From Flavobacterium gilvum (lineage in GTDB: Bacteria; Bacteroidota; Bacteroidia; Flavobacteriales; Flavobacteriaceae), in the NCBI RefSeq assembly GCF_001761465.1, contig NZ_CP017479.1, positions 682,001-746,000 of the forward strand: DNA of 64,000 nucleotides, given 5' to 3'. Position 1 is the first letter of the stretch, and each line of letters starts with the position of its first letter. The position numbers and the translations under genes are program-made. This document shows, piece by piece, positions 3,011-58,791 of this stretch. The notes under the pieces were generated by a model that saw only the letters and a list, made by a program, of their open reading frames with translations, was not told the DNA's origin and did no database searches.

Positions 3011-3018
3011 TAATTTTG
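3011..3018 (+). promoter_or_regulatory. Putative -7 box of sod
   Basis: TAATTTTG matches the Bacteroidota -7 consensus TAnnTTTG. Transcription would start near 3024, about 30 nt before the ATG at 3055 and after the in-frame ATG at 3016, which argues for the shorter protein start. No clear -33 TTG is seen. Confidence 0.45.
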
Positions 3019-3054: not shown

Positions 3055-3660
3055 ATGGCTTTTGAATTACCACAATTACCTTATGCGTATGACGCATTAG
3101 AACCTCATATTGACGCTCGTACAATGGAAATTCACCATTCAAAGCATCACAATGCATATACTACAAATTTGAATGCGGCTATTACCGGAACTGATTTGGA
3201 AGGTAAATCAATTGAAGATATCTTGACAAACCTTGATAAAAATAACGCTGCTGTTCGTAACAATGGTGGTGGTTTTTACAATCACAACTTGTTTTGGACT
3301 GTTATGGCTCCAAATGCAGGTGGACTTCCAACTGGCGAATTGCTAGCTGCTATTGAAAGTGCATTTGGTTCTTTTGATGAATTTAAAGCAAGATTTGCTA
3401 AAGCTGGTGCTACACAATTTGGTTCTGGATGGGCTTGGTTATGTGTAAAAGACGGAAAGCTTGATGTTTGTGGAACTCCAAATCAAGACAACCCTTTGAT
3501 GCCAGGAGTTGGTTGCGGAGGAACTCCAATTCTTGGAATGGATGTTTGGGAACACGCTTACTACTTGAACTATCAAAACAGAAGACCTGATTATATTGAG
3601 GCTTTCTTTAATGTGATTAACTGGGCAGAAGTTGCAAGACGTTTTGCGCTAGTGAAGTAA
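3055..3660 (+). CDS. sod: Superoxide dismutase, Fe/Mn family
   Basis: Cytoplasmic dismutation of superoxide to oxygen and hydrogen peroxide. The 201-residue protein starts [20 protein letters not shown], the usual N-terminus of the family. Metal ligands are visible as His in [10 protein letters not shown], His in [10 protein letters not shown] and Asp and His in DVWEHAYY, and GSGWAWL is the conserved active-site region. An upstream in-frame ATG at 3016 would add 13 residues unlike the family and would lie before the predicted transcription start, so 3055 is preferred. Fe versus Mn use cannot be decided by eye. Monocistronic, followed by its own terminator. Confidence 0.95.
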
Positions 3661-3723: not shown

Positions 3724-3797
3724 ATAAACCAACTTCAATCTTTTTCTCTTTTTTCTATGCTCTATTTTCTATCATCTTTTTTTGACTTTAAGCCAAT

Positions 3798-3872
3798 AAA
3801 AAAGGTGAAATGTTACTTTCACCCTTTTTGCCCCAAATCTACCATAAATTTAACCTACTAAAAATTATGGTA
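3798..3872 (-). ncRNA. Putative small RNA, array copy 1
   Basis: Read on the minus strand: a -7-like box TACATTTG (3882-3875), then a hairpin TACCATAA/TTATGGTA, a linker ATTTGGGGCAAAAA, then an intrinsic terminator GGTGAAA-loop-TTTCACC ending in six T. In this copy the base of the first stem has changed (GTACC in place of CTACC), but eight pairs remain. Function unknown. Confidence 0.5.
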
Positions 3873-3986
3873 CTCAAATGTACTTTGAAATAAAGTAGTA
3901 TGCCATTATTTTCGATGAATGTCTCAAATATTCGTTTAACAGTTAATTTCCTGGTTATAGACAAATTAACCTCAGTTTATTCCAAT

Positions 3987-4062
3987 AAAAAAGGTGAAAT
4001 GTTACTTTCACCCTTTTTGCCCCAAATCTACCATAAATTTAACCTACTAAAAATTATGGTAG
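3987..4062 (-). ncRNA. Putative small RNA, array copy 2
   Basis: Same architecture as copy 1: box TACATTTG at 4071-4064, perfect nine-pair stem CTACCATAA/TTATGGTAG, identical linker, and a terminator with a run of T. No -33 TTG is evident at the usual distance, so promoter activity is an inference from the -7 box alone. Confidence 0.5.
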
Positions 4063-4175
4063 TCAAATGTACTTTGAAATAAAGTAGTATGCCATTATTT
4101 TCGATGAATGTCGTAAATATTCGTTTAACAGTTAATTTTTTGATTATAAGATAATTAACCCCAATTTATTCCAAT

Positions 4176-4251
4176 AAAAAAGGTGAAATGTTACTTTCAC
4201 CCTTTTTGCCCCAAATCTACCATAAATTTAACCTACTAAAAATTATGGTAG
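4176..4251 (-). ncRNA. Putative small RNA, array copy 3
   Basis: Box TACATTTG at 4260-4253, perfect CTACCATAA/TTATGGTAG stem, linker ATTTGGGGCAAAAA and terminator, all identical to copy 2. Differences between copies 2 and 3 fall in the spacer between units. Confidence 0.5.
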
Positions 4252-4363
4252 TCAAATGTACTTTGAAATTAAGTAGTATACTATTATTTTCGATGAATGT
4301 CGTAAATACTCGTTTAACAGTTAATTTCCTTATTATAAGCAAATTATCTCGATTTATTCCAAT

Positions 4364-4438
4364 AAAAAAGGTGAAATGTTACTTTCACCCTTTTTGCCCC
4401 AAATCTACCATAAACTTAACCTACTAAAATTATGGTAG
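4364..4438 (-). ncRNA. Putative small RNA, array copy 4 (first on the minus strand)
   Basis: This copy has the best promoter box, TATATTTGC at 4448-4440, matching the Bacteroidota TAnnTTTG(C) consensus. The repeat stops right upstream of it. The hairpin stem is unchanged, while the loop has one deletion and one A-to-G change (minus strand); variation confined to the loop is what a conserved RNA would show. The terminator is intact. Confidence 0.55.
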
Positions 4439-4516
4439 AGCAAATATACATTGAACTGCCGTGTTTTTATAATAAAGTCGACAAAACACGCACAAAACCG
4501 TTAAACGGTAATTTTG

Positions 4517-6415
4517 TTAATATGCTCTTGCATCTTTTCCTTCATAGAAGTTCATAAATGCTCTGTTAACCACTCTATTTCCTCCATGAGTTGGGTAATT
4601 TCCTGTGAAATACCAATCTCCTAAATTTTTAGGACAAGCGATATGTAAATCTTCAACAGACTGGAAAATAATTTTTACTTCTGCTTTAATTTCAGATGAA
4701 CTTAACATTTCGGCAATTTTATCCGAAATCTCCTGATCTGTAAAAGGCTCATAAATAGCAGTAACATAATTTACCACTTCGCTATCGATGAAATTTTCCT
4801 GGGCTTTACATTTGGTATAAACTTCATCAACAATATGATATAAGTTTCTTTCTCTCAACAATTCCAATGCCGCTCTAAAGGCAACAAGTCCTTCGAGTTT
4901 TGCCATGTCAATTCCGTAACAATCAGGAAAACGTATCTGTGGCGCAGAGGAAACAATTACTATTCTTTTTGGATTCAAACGATCCATCATTTTGATAATA
5001 CTCATTTTAAGAGTTGTTCCCCTTACAATACTATCATCAATAATTACAAGATTATCTGTAGGTTTTATTACACCATAAGTCACATCATAAACGTGTGCCA
5101 CCAAGTCATCTCTACTGCTATCTTCGGTAATAAATGTTCTAAGCTTAGCATCTTTAATGGCTACTTTTTCGGTTCTGATTTTTACAGAAAGTAATTTCTC
5201 CAAAGATTCTTCGTCTAAAGTATCTTTATTTTCAAGGATATAATTTTTCTTTCTTTGGTTTAAGAAATCCTGAGCCGCCTCTACCAATCCGTAAAAAGAA
5301 GTCTCTGCCGTATTTGGAATGTATGAAAAAACAGTATTGTCTGTATCACTATCGATAGATTTCAATACTGATGGCAAAATAAGTTTTCCTAAATTCTTTC
5401 TTTCCTGATAAATTTCGGCATCACTACCTCGTGAAAAATAAATACGTTCAAAAGAACATGCTTTTTTTACAGTTGGTTCCAAAATTTGGTTCATGGTAAC
5501 TTTTCCGTTTTTCTTGATAATCAAGGCATTTCCTGGATCAATTTCCTGAACGCTTTCAAAAGGCACATTAAATACCGTTTGAATAACTGGTCGCTCCGAA
5601 GCCACAACTACCATTTCGTCATCCTGATAGAAATAGGCAGGACGAATTCCGGCTGGATCTCTAAAAACAAAAGCATCTCCATGTCCTAAAAGACCAGCCA
5701 TAGCATATCCTCCATCGAGATTTTTGGCAGAACGCGCCAATATTTTTGCAATATCCAAACGCTCTGCAATTACCGGCGAAGCTTCTCTTTTGGAATACCC
5801 CTCAGCTTTACAATCCTGATATAATTGCATTACTTCTTTATCAAGGAAGTGACCAATTTTTTCCATTACGGTAACGGTATCAGCCATCTCTTTTGGGTGT
5901 TGTCCTAACTCAACCAAATTTTGAAAAAGTTCTTTAACATTCGTCATATTAAAATTCCCTGCCAAAATAAGGTTACGGTGCATCCAGTTACTTTGACGCA
6001 AAAAAGGATGTACGCTTTCGATACTATTTTTCCCAAAAGTCCCATAACGAACGTGACCTAAAAATAATTCTCCAACATACGGAATATTGGATTTCAATTG
6101 GGCAACATCATCAGCATACTCCGGATGGTCAACCATCACTTCGTTTATTCTTTCATTTATCTGTTTAAAAACATCCTGAATGGGCTGCGAATGATTGGAA
6201 CGTACTCTACTGATGTATCTCTCACCGGGTTCCACATCCATCTTTATACTTGCAAAACCCGCACCATCCTGACCTCGATTGTGCTGTTTCTCCATCATCA
6301 GGTACATTTTTTGAATACCGTAAAAAGCTGTTCCGTACTTTTCTTTATAGTATTCAAGGGGTTTTAAAAGTCTAACTAAAGCTATTCCACATTCGTGTTT
6401 TAAAGCGTCGCTCAT
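4517..6415 (-). CDS. purF: Amidophosphoribosyltransferase (long Bacteroidota form)
   Basis: First committed step of purine synthesis: PRPP plus glutamine to phosphoribosylamine. The class II glutamine amidotransferase nucleophile is Cys9 (KHECGIAL), which becomes N-terminal after removal of eight residues. QHNRGQDGAGFAS and a GHVRYGTFG motif belong to the glutaminase domain. The phosphoribosyltransferase PRPP loop is VIIDDSIVRGTTLKMS near residue 450. The 632 residues exceed the roughly 500 of the E. coli enzyme; extra sequence lies around residues 370-410 and at the C-terminus, and I have seen this long form in flavobacteria. Purine synthesis is also represented by purN nearby on the same strand, though not in the same operon. 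Confidence 0.92.
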   Translation of the reverse strand: MSDALKHECGIALVRLLKPLEYYKEKYGTAFYGIQKMYLMMEKQHNRGQDGAGFASIKMDVEPGERYISRVRSNHSQPIQDVFKQINERINEVMVDHPEYADDVAQLKSNIPYVGELFLGHVRYGTFGKNSIESVHPFLRQSNWMHRNLILAGNFNMTNVKELFQNLVELGQHPKEMADTVTVMEKIGHFLDKEVMQLYQDCKAEGYSKREASPVIAERLDIAKILARSAKNLDGGYAMAGLLGHGDAFVFRDPAGIRPAYFYQDDEMVVVASERPVIQTVFNVPFESVQEIDPGNALIIKKNGKVTMNQILEPTVKKACSFERIYFSRGSDAEIYQERKNLGKLILPSVLKSIDSDTDNTVFSYIPNTAETSFYGLVEAAQDFLNQRKKNYILENKDTLDEESLEKLLSVKIRTEKVAIKDAKLRTFITEDSSRDDLVAHVYDVTYGVIKPTDNLVIIDDSIVRGTTLKMSIIKMMDRLNPKRIVIVSSAPQIRFPDCYGIDMAKLEGLVAFRAALELLRERNLYHIVDEVYTKCKAQENFIDSEVVNYVTAIYEPFTDQEISDKIAEMLSSSEIKAEVKIIFQSVEDLHIACPKNLGDWYFTGNYPTHGGNRVVNRAFMNFYEGKDARAY

Positions 6416-56249: not shown

Positions 56250-58673
56250 TTATTTCCCTCTAATCAAATTAAATTGGCTGTCAAACTTGTATTTCTTTCC
56301 GGCAATCAAGTCCACCTCTTTTTGCTTTCCATTATATACAAATGTACAATGATTGGTTTCCCCTGCATGAATAGTAGCTGACACCAATTTTCCGTCTTTC
56401 CATTGTATATCTAACTTATGGCCACCGTGAATACGTGTCCCCAATAAATGCCCTTGCGGGAAAGTTGCTGCACAGGCTGGCAAAAATTCAACACGTCCGG
56501 GTTGCGAAAACACCATCATATCGGCCAGCAATCGCTGCAAACTCAACACCGAATCAAGATTGTAAATAGCATGCTCTGGATTATGAGAAGTAACAAGACC
56601 GTTGTACACATAATTACGTTGGGCAAAACGATTAAGATTAGCCAACACTTTTTCCTTTTCGTGCAACCTAGTAGCCATCAATGCCAAATGAATAAGACCA
56701 TGAGCCGATTCAGTATCCGATTCAAAACGCTTACCCAAAGCCACTCTTGCAGCCTCTACTAGAGCTGGATCAGCACCTGGTTCAAAGAACTCTCTACCTG
56801 GGAAAACAGGATAGAGATGCGAATTGTGTCGGTGTTTATAATTATCTTCAAACGGTAAAGTTATCCATTCAGCCAAAGCGCCATCAGCATTAATGCGATA
56901 AGGAACCAACTTATCGTGGTATTCTTTCCATTTTGCCATATCTGACTGATCAAGATTAAACATTTTTCCCAATTTCAATAAATGGTCAAATACTTCACGA
57001 GCCACTGCTATTTCGAAAGTAGCATCTTTTGAAAGCGTACTGCCTTGTCCTTTAACTCCATTTTCTGGTGAAATCCCAGGGGATATATGATAGTACCCAT
57101 CTTTATCTTTGGTAAGATAGTCTTCATAAAACTGTGCCATTTCCTGATATAAAGGTAAAACACGCTTGCGCAGAAAAGCCATATCTCCATAAAGCATTCC
57201 GTGCTCATAAAAAGGCATTAGGTTCCATCCTGCACCACCTGGCCAATACATCCATGGAAGCCCCGGAGTAAAATGATTAAGATATCCTTTTTCTGGATCA
57301 CTGTAATGAGGTACCAAGAAGCCACGACAACCCAAATAACTGCTGGCATTAAGTCTCCAGGCGGGTAATAATCTTTCTACATAACCAAAATACGATTCGG
57401 CACATTCGGCCAAATCACCAGTTGAGATACCCGAAATAGCAAGGTTGACATTAGTATCCATCACAAAGCCACCAATCCATGAAGGTGTCCATCCACCTCC
57501 CCAAATGCCTTGCAGTGGTGGCGGAAAATCTCCAGACGAAGATATGAGCAAGTATCGCCCCATGGCATGCATCTGCTCAAGAAATAGAGGTGTTATCCCT
57601 TTTTCATGCGCTTCTTCCAACATTTTCTCTGTTGGCGTGCTTTTCCAAAGATCTGCACAACCCAGATCAAACACTACACGACGAAACATCTCGCCATGTT
57701 GCGAGGCATGTGGCAACAACAGTTTATCATAGTCTGCAGAAATCAAAGAAAGCTCATTACGAGTGGCTATTTCCTGTGAAGTGCAACCAAATTCTAATGG
57801 TGTTATACGTACTAATATCGTGACCTCATTAGTATTTTCTATCTTAAGTTGATTATTCTCCACACGCATTTGTCCACCATTTGCAACTACCCGAGCCAAA
57901 CCTTCATAACCGCCGGGATCTTGCGAATATTGTGCATGATAGCTCAACCAGCCCGATGCTTCTGCTTTACTACTTGTATTAAGAAAAACCTTGTCCAATT
58001 CAAAACCGCTGGCCTTTCCTGTACGGCCGGGAGTTTCGGCAAGATTGAGTGTTAATTCCAGTTTTTTTCCTGCTGATGATTTAATCCTGATTACATTAAC
58101 ATTATCAATCCTAGATGAAAATACACTTTCCTCTACGGTACCCTGTTCATCTTTCCATTGGGCTTTTGCTTCCCCGGTTTCCAAATTCAGCTCACGTCGA
58201 TAAGCAGATACTGCTCCAACCTTTTTTACATTCATTTGTACATCAAATGCTGGATGCGGAAATAAAGGCCACATATTTGTGGCTCCCATAGCATCCAACT
58301 GCTTACGAGCTTCACCTGTGCTAAGACGTGCAGCCTCGCCAAACTTAGCTGAATCACTCAACTTTCTCATCTCTGGAAGCAGGTTGGCAAGGTTGGCCAC
58401 CGCTACTTTGTGTCGATCCCAAGCGCGAACAAAAAGTTTTTCATGTACACAAATAATCCGCTCCTCACCCGCGTTCCCTGTAAACATAGTTCCGTGACGA
58501 CCATTTCCCGTTACAAATGCGTCTTCCCACTTAAGTGCTGGTTTATCAGACCATACAATCCATTGTCGAGACGGATTGCCTGACTTATCAGCTGTTTTCT
58601 TTACTTGTGCGGAAAGCGAAGCAACAGCTGTCACCGCTCCAAAAAGAAAAATTATCTTTAATAGTGATTTCAT
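56250..58673 (-). CDS. GH95 alpha-L-fucosidase or alpha-L-galactosidase
   Basis: 807 residues; signal peptide (GAVTAVASLSAQ). The N-terminal beta domain opens with WEDAFVTGNGRHGTMFTGN. The (alpha/alpha)6 barrel has PPPLQGIWGGGWTPSWIGG, then MDTNVNLAI, where the two Asn match the paired Asn of the Bifidobacterium enzyme AfcA, HISPGISPENG with the Glu acid, and IYNLDSVLSLQRLLADMM with the Asp. The inverting mechanism through these residues is known for the family. Its GC content appears higher than that of the neighbours, a possible sign of acquisition. It lies 8 bp upstream of the propeller gene. Confidence 0.88.
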   Translation of the reverse strand: MKSLLKIIFLFGAVTAVASLSAQVKKTADKSGNPSRQWIVWSDKPALKWEDAFVTGNGRHGTMFTGNAGEERIICVHEKLFVRAWDRHKVAVANLANLLPEMRKLSDSAKFGEAARLSTGEARKQLDAMGATNMWPLFPHPAFDVQMNVKKVGAVSAYRRELNLETGEAKAQWKDEQGTVEESVFSSRIDNVNVIRIKSSAGKKLELTLNLAETPGRTGKASGFELDKVFLNTSSKAEASGWLSYHAQYSQDPGGYEGLARVVANGGQMRVENNQLKIENTNEVTILVRITPLEFGCTSQEIATRNELSLISADYDKLLLPHASQHGEMFRRVVFDLGCADLWKSTPTEKMLEEAHEKGITPLFLEQMHAMGRYLLISSSGDFPPPLQGIWGGGWTPSWIGGFVMDTNVNLAISGISTGDLAECAESYFGYVERLLPAWRLNASSYLGCRGFLVPHYSDPEKGYLNHFTPGLPWMYWPGGAGWNLMPFYEHGMLYGDMAFLRKRVLPLYQEMAQFYEDYLTKDKDGYYHISPGISPENGVKGQGSTLSKDATFEIAVAREVFDHLLKLGKMFNLDQSDMAKWKEYHDKLVPYRINADGALAEWITLPFEDNYKHRHNSHLYPVFPGREFFEPGADPALVEAARVALGKRFESDTESAHGLIHLALMATRLHEKEKVLANLNRFAQRNYVYNGLVTSHNPEHAIYNLDSVLSLQRLLADMMVFSQPGRVEFLPACAATFPQGHLLGTRIHGGHKLDIQWKDGKLVSATIHAGETNHCTFVYNGKQKEVDLIAGKKYKFDSQFNLIRGK

Positions 58674-58791
58674 TTATTTAATAAGTTAGTTCATTTATTT
58701 AATAAGGATAATAAATACAAATAATTCGCAATTCATTTTTTTTATATAAAGTCGTAAAAAACACCCCTTTTAATCTATCAATACTCATCCC

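Follow-up and report, generated by a model that had tools for sequence, protein, structure and literature searches.

A tandem array of predicted small RNA genes between purF and sod in Flavobacterium gilvum, with a CAP-domain lipoprotein mRNA as its probable partner

Few base-pairing RNAs of Bacteroidota have a known partner; those named in the accessible parts of the sources consulted are GibS and FopS of Bacteroides and Rfp18 of Flavobacterium psychrophilum. According to the available sections of one report, FopS of Bacteroides thetaiotaomicron is a paralogous sRNA family with 14 members and SusC-like targets, found in Bacteroidaceae and reported as deposited in Rfam; the same sections name LhrC1-7 and Qrr among multicopy sRNAs (PMC11697453). 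Rfp18 is described, in the available excerpts, as a structured sRNA that is conserved in the genus and reported to pair with secreted-protein mRNAs (PMC9723704). Transcriptomes of F. psychrophilum and F. columnare list sRNAs in their supplements, as far as the accessible text goes (PMC9723704, PMC5395568). The RNA presented here occurs in 198 of 237 sampled Flavobacteriaceae genera, mostly in one place and with a specific, testable predicted partner mRNA, and offers a handle on a regulator of secreted and surface proteins.

The array occupies the minus strand at 3793-4455 of the window, the whole 64,000-nt stretch of F. gilvum DNA that was analysed, and consists of three 189-bp units and a truncated fourth. 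TRF reports a period of 189 bp over 3793-4455 (score 1133), a repeat search places the unit starts 189, 189 and 188 bp apart, and the units are the only blastn matches within the 4.40-Mb F. gilvum genome. The features are as follows, in window coordinates.

4517-6415, minus strand: purF, upstream conserved neighbour, co-directional with the array (ORF, synteny)
4441-4508, minus strand: predicted promoter of copy 1, TATATTTG (4441-4448), with upstream tandem operator boxes (promoter model 35.3 bits; sequence)
4362-4440, minus strand: predicted sRNA copy 1, nearest purF and first transcribed (covariance-model match G000:C1:686362-686440, 98.2 bits)
4364-4395, minus strand: predicted intrinsic terminator of copy 1 (fold; plus-strand image of the hairpin in the terminator scan)
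4253-4321, minus strand: predicted promoter and operator of copy 2, TACATTTG at 4253-4260 (promoter model 46.8 bits)
4174-4253, minus strand: predicted sRNA copy 2 (covariance-model match G000:C1:686174-686253, 91 bits)
4176-4207, minus strand: predicted intrinsic terminator of copy 2 (fold)
4064-4132, minus strand: predicted promoter and operator of copy 3 (promoter model 44.2 bits)
3985-4064, minus strand: predicted sRNA copy 3 (covariance-model match G000:C1:685985-686064, 91 bits)
3987-4018, minus strand: predicted intrinsic terminator of copy 3 (fold)
3875-3943, minus strand: predicted promoter and operator of copy 4 (promoter model 44.4 bits)
3796-3875, minus strand: predicted sRNA copy 4, the last (covariance-model match G000:C1:685796-685875, 90.8 bits)
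3798-3829, minus strand: predicted intrinsic terminator of copy 4 (fold)
3055-3660, plus strand: sod, convergent conserved neighbour (ORF, listed from the upstream TTG at 3016; synteny)

Near the array, just 5' of sod, lies a Flavo-1 RNA (RF01705, 77.5 bits) at 2837-2914 on the plus strand. Elsewhere in the window there is a 21-bp minisatellite of 2.4 copies at 58657-58706.

Every minus-strand unit carries the elements that an earlier note on this DNA had read from it: TAnnTTTG, a stem CTACCATAA/TTATGGTAG, the linker GATTTGGGGC and an intrinsic terminator. TAnnTTTG reads TATATTTGC in the copy transcribed first and TACATTTG in the rest, and the stem of the last copy deviates by a single base. 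The note had also held that the first-transcribed copy varies only in its loop; the loop change is there, but the 5' stem base differs as well. Similarity of the first-transcribed repeat does end just upstream of the -7 box with the RNA kept, as had been stated, with the refinement that the promoter model, whose input included the F. gilvum promoters, picks up the operator of this copy despite its sequence divergence.

The RNA predicted for each unit is about 77 nt long and comprises a 5' hairpin whose apical loop is conserved, the unpaired linker and a strong terminator; MFE z-scores of the units range from -3.9 to -5.6. Across an alignment of 149 copies (129 distinct), fitted to the covariance model and so favouring the structure of that model, pairs are formed in 98.5% of cells, compared with 44-57% for slid control structures. 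Two-sided changes occur in 8 of the 18 pairs, with 142 covarying cells among the 129 distinct copies. The covariation falls mostly within the terminator, and the 5' hairpin is nearly invariant in sequence. The apical loop AGTAGGTTAAG and the linker AGATTTGGGGC are almost invariant among the distinct copies, and this fixity of unpaired sequence suggests that loop and linker may act as a seed. A tiny open reading frame (ATG GTA GAT TTG GGG CAA) was rejected as the source of the constraint: there is little variation at its third codon positions, and it reads on into the variable terminator, so that constraint at the RNA level is the better fit.

Alignment of 112 distinct promoters on TAnnTTTG (from 148 copies, 34 without a strict TAnnTTT being left out) brings out two further boxes, TTnAwCGA and TTcATCnAAAAT, about 20 bp apart. 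Both lie upstream of a TTT(G) that itself stands 24 nt before the TA of TAnnTTTG.

A covariance search of the unit and a comparison of copy number among relatives, both proposed in the earlier note, were carried out with a covariance model built from 62 sequences. The RNA is conserved: 318 of 397 Flavobacteriaceae genomes, belonging to 198 of the 237 genera, match the model one to seven times each, and blastn with copy 1 finds the RNA in 124 of 150 Flavobacterium genomes. Conservation across genera makes the array more than a product of chance. Wider sampling returned little beyond the family. Eighteen of 148 genomes match in the order sample, 17 of them Flavobacteriaceae and the sole other (G566) at 33.1 bits, and 9 of 198 in the class sample, four being Flavobacterium (F. 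gilvum included) and five others at 30.6-41 bits. These weak matches outside Flavobacteriaceae (30.6-41 bits) were taken as terminator matches; at the five class-sample loci outside Flavobacterium, which this check covered, the unit HMM gives at most 20 bits. No phage or plasmid record matches the RNA at E 1e-5.

The RNA locus is mostly fixed between purF and sod. Synteny was counted at best-scoring loci, which are no random sample: in other Flavobacterium both genes flank 27 of 29 loci, while another, at a contig end, has sod but not purF and one has neither; in the family search, F. gilvum excluded, both flank 24 of 29 loci, with purF only in two and neither in three. One genome (G163) has purF and sod apart, with one RNA copy beside purF and another beside sod. 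It is extremely improbable that the units are untranscribed repetitive terminators downstream of purF. They do end in strong terminators and follow purF, but such an origin would not account for a conserved promoter and operator or an invariant loop and linker, nor for the copies kept beside both genes in G163. Nor are the units random terminator repeats lacking a conserved stem, the outcome that the earlier note had named as fatal to its proposal of regulatory RNAs of about 75 nt in multiple dosage. That proposal is strengthened by a conserved RNA of about 77 nt with its own predicted promoter, a covarying terminator and a likely mRNA partner. At L070 (G674:C4:179084-180130), in another genome, there are five copies, four with equal model score, which suggests recent amplification or homogenisation.

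Run on 15 genomes, a promoter model built from 80 of 144 distinct promoters identifies those of the arrays and, with weaker scores, sites before recurrent genes. Their products are a LamG protein whose T9SS tail scores below threshold, a WFMG-motif small secreted protein, and thioredoxin-like, LRR and large adhesin-like proteins; 'secreted' and 'adhesin-like' are our own reading wherever no family matched. Sixty-four of the sites listed outside arrays were examined, 12 being without an ORF. The regulator that would bind the tandem boxes may be of LytTR type, a guess from the consensus of that class.

Several further genes stand behind this type of promoter. Proteins of about 120 aa with the WFMG motif and signal-like starts are found at L111 (G000:C1:1928517-1928574), L104, L105, L106, L115, L119, L237, L252 and L253; the two members of this family that were scanned matched no Pfam family. 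A small membrane-like protein (MKNDQITTKESL...) occurs at L110 (G000:C1:990678-990745), L116 and L231, and at L110 and L116 its gene is divergent from one that reads, from its sequence, as a TetR-type regulator. At L123 (G051:C1:2342718-2342787) the promoter-model match lies 5' of an FGE-sulfatase protein (PF03781) that we take to be GldK-like, presumably with a role in gliding and T9SS.

The tandem operator also provided the route to a likely target. Two of the weaker promoter-model matches (L249 and L262) lead to a CAP-domain protein (PF00188, 44.7 bits) of about 165 aa, whose N-terminus we read as lipoprotein-like. The gene is present in 104 of 150 Flavobacterium genomes, including F. gilvum:

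G000:C1:2991279-2991779, minus strand: CAP gene of F. gilvum (CAP homologue search)

At L271, L268 and L293 the CAP gene has on one side what we read as a pdxH-like gene and on the other a convergent gene that seems, by its sequence, to be PD40/OmpA-like.

The leader of the CAP mRNA carries conserved complementarity to the RNA. Thirty-three of 38 CAP leaders (from the 30 best-scoring loci in 30 genomes, no random sample) contain TTTGCCCCACAATCTACTTTAAACTTAAACTACTA or a variant of it, an antisense element whose end lies 2-8 nt ahead of the AUG. The element is about 34-35 nt long and a near-complete antisense of the RNA core, the reverse complement of which is TTTGCCCCAAATCTACCATAAACTTAACCTACTA; TTTGCCCC is part of the CAP leader. 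Pairwise identity within the element is 78%, vs. 39% in the 35 nt directly upstream (n = 32 leaders, one CAP leader with TTTCCCC being left out of the count). In F. gilvum the predicted duplex reaches -40.1 kcal/mol with copy 1 and -33.9 kcal/mol with copies 2-4, and with either the CAP leader ranks 1 of 304 by duplex energy [background: 303 mechanically called genes from a 400-kb sample plus the window; mean with copy 1 -13.7, s.d. 3.3]. Duplexes of the 33 leaders with the element range from -31.3 to -47.8 kcal/mol and those of the five without it from -12.3 to -25.8 kcal/mol. At E <= 0.01 a model of the CAP leaders matches the F. gilvum genome in five places, once at the CAP leader and once on the antisense strand of each of the four array copies. 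A type I toxin-antitoxin RNA was rejected, the partner being a CAP-domain protein of about 165 aa and no small hydrophobic toxin.

The operator is shared between RNA and CAP gene. Its strict two-box form precedes 26 of the 33 element-bearing CAP genes; seven CAP promoters fail the strict pattern, among them that of F. gilvum, which has one clear box. Co-occurrence is one-sided: of 150 Flavobacterium genomes, 104 have both RNA and CAP gene, 20 the canonical RNA alone, none the CAP gene alone and 26 neither (Fisher p 6e-17, without correction for descent).

Taken together, we consider it probable that the array encodes a four-copy, trans-acting sRNA of about 77 nt that is activated together with the CAP lipoprotein gene and represses it by pairing with its leader. 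Each copy would be transcribed alone from its TAnnTTTG promoter under an operator of two tandem TTnAwCGA boxes spaced about 20 bp, its transcript ending at its own terminator, and the same kind of operator upstream of the CAP gene would co-activate RNA and target. The RNA core (apical loop, 3' stem arm and linker) is predicted to pair with about 34 nt of the CAP leader, 2-8 nt before the AUG, and would most likely block ribosome loading. Regulator, RNA and target would then form an incoherent feed-forward loop in which the copy number of the array sets RNA dosage. Pairing just before the AUG normally hinders initiation, and repression is inferred as the direction because the pairing adjoins the AUG. 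A positive effect of the same RNA and pairing, through stabilisation of the mRNA or opening of the leader, is unlikely given where the pairing ends; such effects do occur in the genus, since according to the available excerpts deletion of Rfp18 in F. psychrophilum lowered fpp1 mRNA (PMC9723704).

The RNA is so much more widely distributed than CAP that the CAP mRNA cannot be its sole target: of 124 Flavobacterium genomes with the RNA, 20 lack the CAP gene, and ten inspected matches of the leader model outside Flavobacterium were all antisense of sRNA genes or of a decayed copy. RNA without CAP, in those 20 genomes and family-wide, would also be expected if the CAP leader were a sponge that titrates the RNA from its real targets, and near-complete complementarity suits a decoy. 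We nevertheless judge a sponge quite improbable, because four RNA genes against one CAP gene in F. gilvum is a poor ratio for titration and because the leader element abuts the AUG.

Other leaders of the tandem-box regulon were compared with the core. In four cases a LamG leader ranks first of 305; the LamG leader of F. gilvum is 30th or 40th of 268 in duplex energy and 32nd of 269 in contiguous helix, so that LamG is no more than a possible target. For 52 regulon leaders from 25 families, CAP among them, the core was set against 1000 dinucleotide shuffles of itself: 150 shuffles equalled it in complements of 7 nt or longer, 32 in those of 8 nt or longer, 49 in those of 9 nt or longer and 17 in those of 10 nt or longer. 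Length-matched energies give p 0.076 for all 25 families, and the 24 non-CAP families show no significant enrichment (mean percentile 0.404, Wilcoxon p 0.13). Suggestive further candidates are the leaders of an esterase in G302 (10-nt loop complement), of an adhesin-like protein in G208, and of LRR, LamG and thioredoxin-like proteins. Targets defined by a short complement were discarded: the linker complement followed by ATG has 28 matches in 20 genomes (some antisense of RNA genes) vs. 24 for the reversed control, no excess.

Among the 26 Flavobacterium genomes without a blastn match, ten have a weak covariance-model match. In four of these (G024, G033, G087 and G130) the best locus lies between purF and sod and holds a related RNA with a rewritten core, GTAAATTAATTTTTACGGTATTTTTGGGGGC; in the remaining six the best locus is without purF or sod. 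The antisense of the variant core has 22 matches in the 26 genomes, and its reversed control five. The 22 comprise seven that are the RNA genes themselves, 13 that fall within open frames or are not tied to a leader, and two at a distance of 55-70 nt ahead of related ORFs whose starts resemble signal peptides (G024 and G130), not next to the AUG. The G024 leader pairs clearly better with the variant core than with the canonical one (-34.6 vs. -23.2), the G130 leader slightly better (-29.0 vs. -27.5), and with the CAP consensus the variant core gives a poor duplex (-21.7 vs. -41.4). These two related cases suggest that seed and clients may change together. A broader view can be held tentatively, at somewhat less than even confidence: that sRNA and leader co-evolve as matched pairs, one tandem-box regulator activating array and targets, the whole core serving as seed, and a rewritten core going with the leader of a different surface protein that carries its antisense, while locus, promoter and architecture are kept. 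The altered leader match of the altered-core lineage also bears on whether the common sequence is one protein's RNA or DNA site in opposite orientation, with base pairing incidental. The positions at which the leader is not exactly antisense are themselves conserved, which two independent sites could also produce, but complementarity of about 34 nt runs through loop, stem arm and linker, and we hold such a protein site to be very improbable.

Searching the whole window against Rfam 15 at gathering threshold places no family on the array; the best Rfam score there, HrrF at 22.9 bits against a threshold of 77, was dismissed. The open-licence PMC literature, in its accessible parts, yielded no description of the purF-sod RNA or of a CAP-mRNA partner, and the RNA may already be listed as a transcript in the F. 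psychrophilum or F. columnare supplements. It is a candidate for a new Rfam family.

Base pairing with the CAP leader would make the array RNA resemble FopS which, in the available sections, is likewise a multicopy sRNA of the phylum with an intrinsic terminator and pairing near the start codon of envelope-protein mRNAs (PMC11697453). The FopS seed lies in a single-stranded 5' stretch and that predicted for the array RNA in the apical loop and linker (PMC11697453). Membership in FopS, described there as a single-stranded 5' seed followed by a terminator hairpin, was rejected, as a conserved 5' hairpin precedes the linker here. The published description, so far as accessible, further sets the two apart by tandem arrangement at one locus in Flavobacteriaceae, as against Bacteroidaceae for FopS. 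Rfp18 is similar in being a genus-conserved structured sRNA said to pair with secreted-protein mRNAs, but in the available excerpts it pairs via its third stem-loop; one array unit has two stem-loops, and two units on one transcript would have four (PMC9723704). Compared by these partial descriptions, the array RNA is possibly Rfp18 itself. Like LhrC1-7, Qrr and other multicopy sRNAs, it has several related copies, with predicted overlapping targets. We take its sequence and phylum to be unrelated to theirs. The array has near-identical copies, each with a predicted promoter and an intrinsic terminator, and conserved complementarity to an mRNA leader encoded elsewhere, that of CAP. With no Rfam 15 match, no description found in the accessible literature and a possible listing in supplements, the array RNA is therefore a probable addition to the class of multicopy base-pairing sRNAs, unusual in its tandem arrangement, in how widely it occurs and in how long a stretch of one leader it is complementary to.
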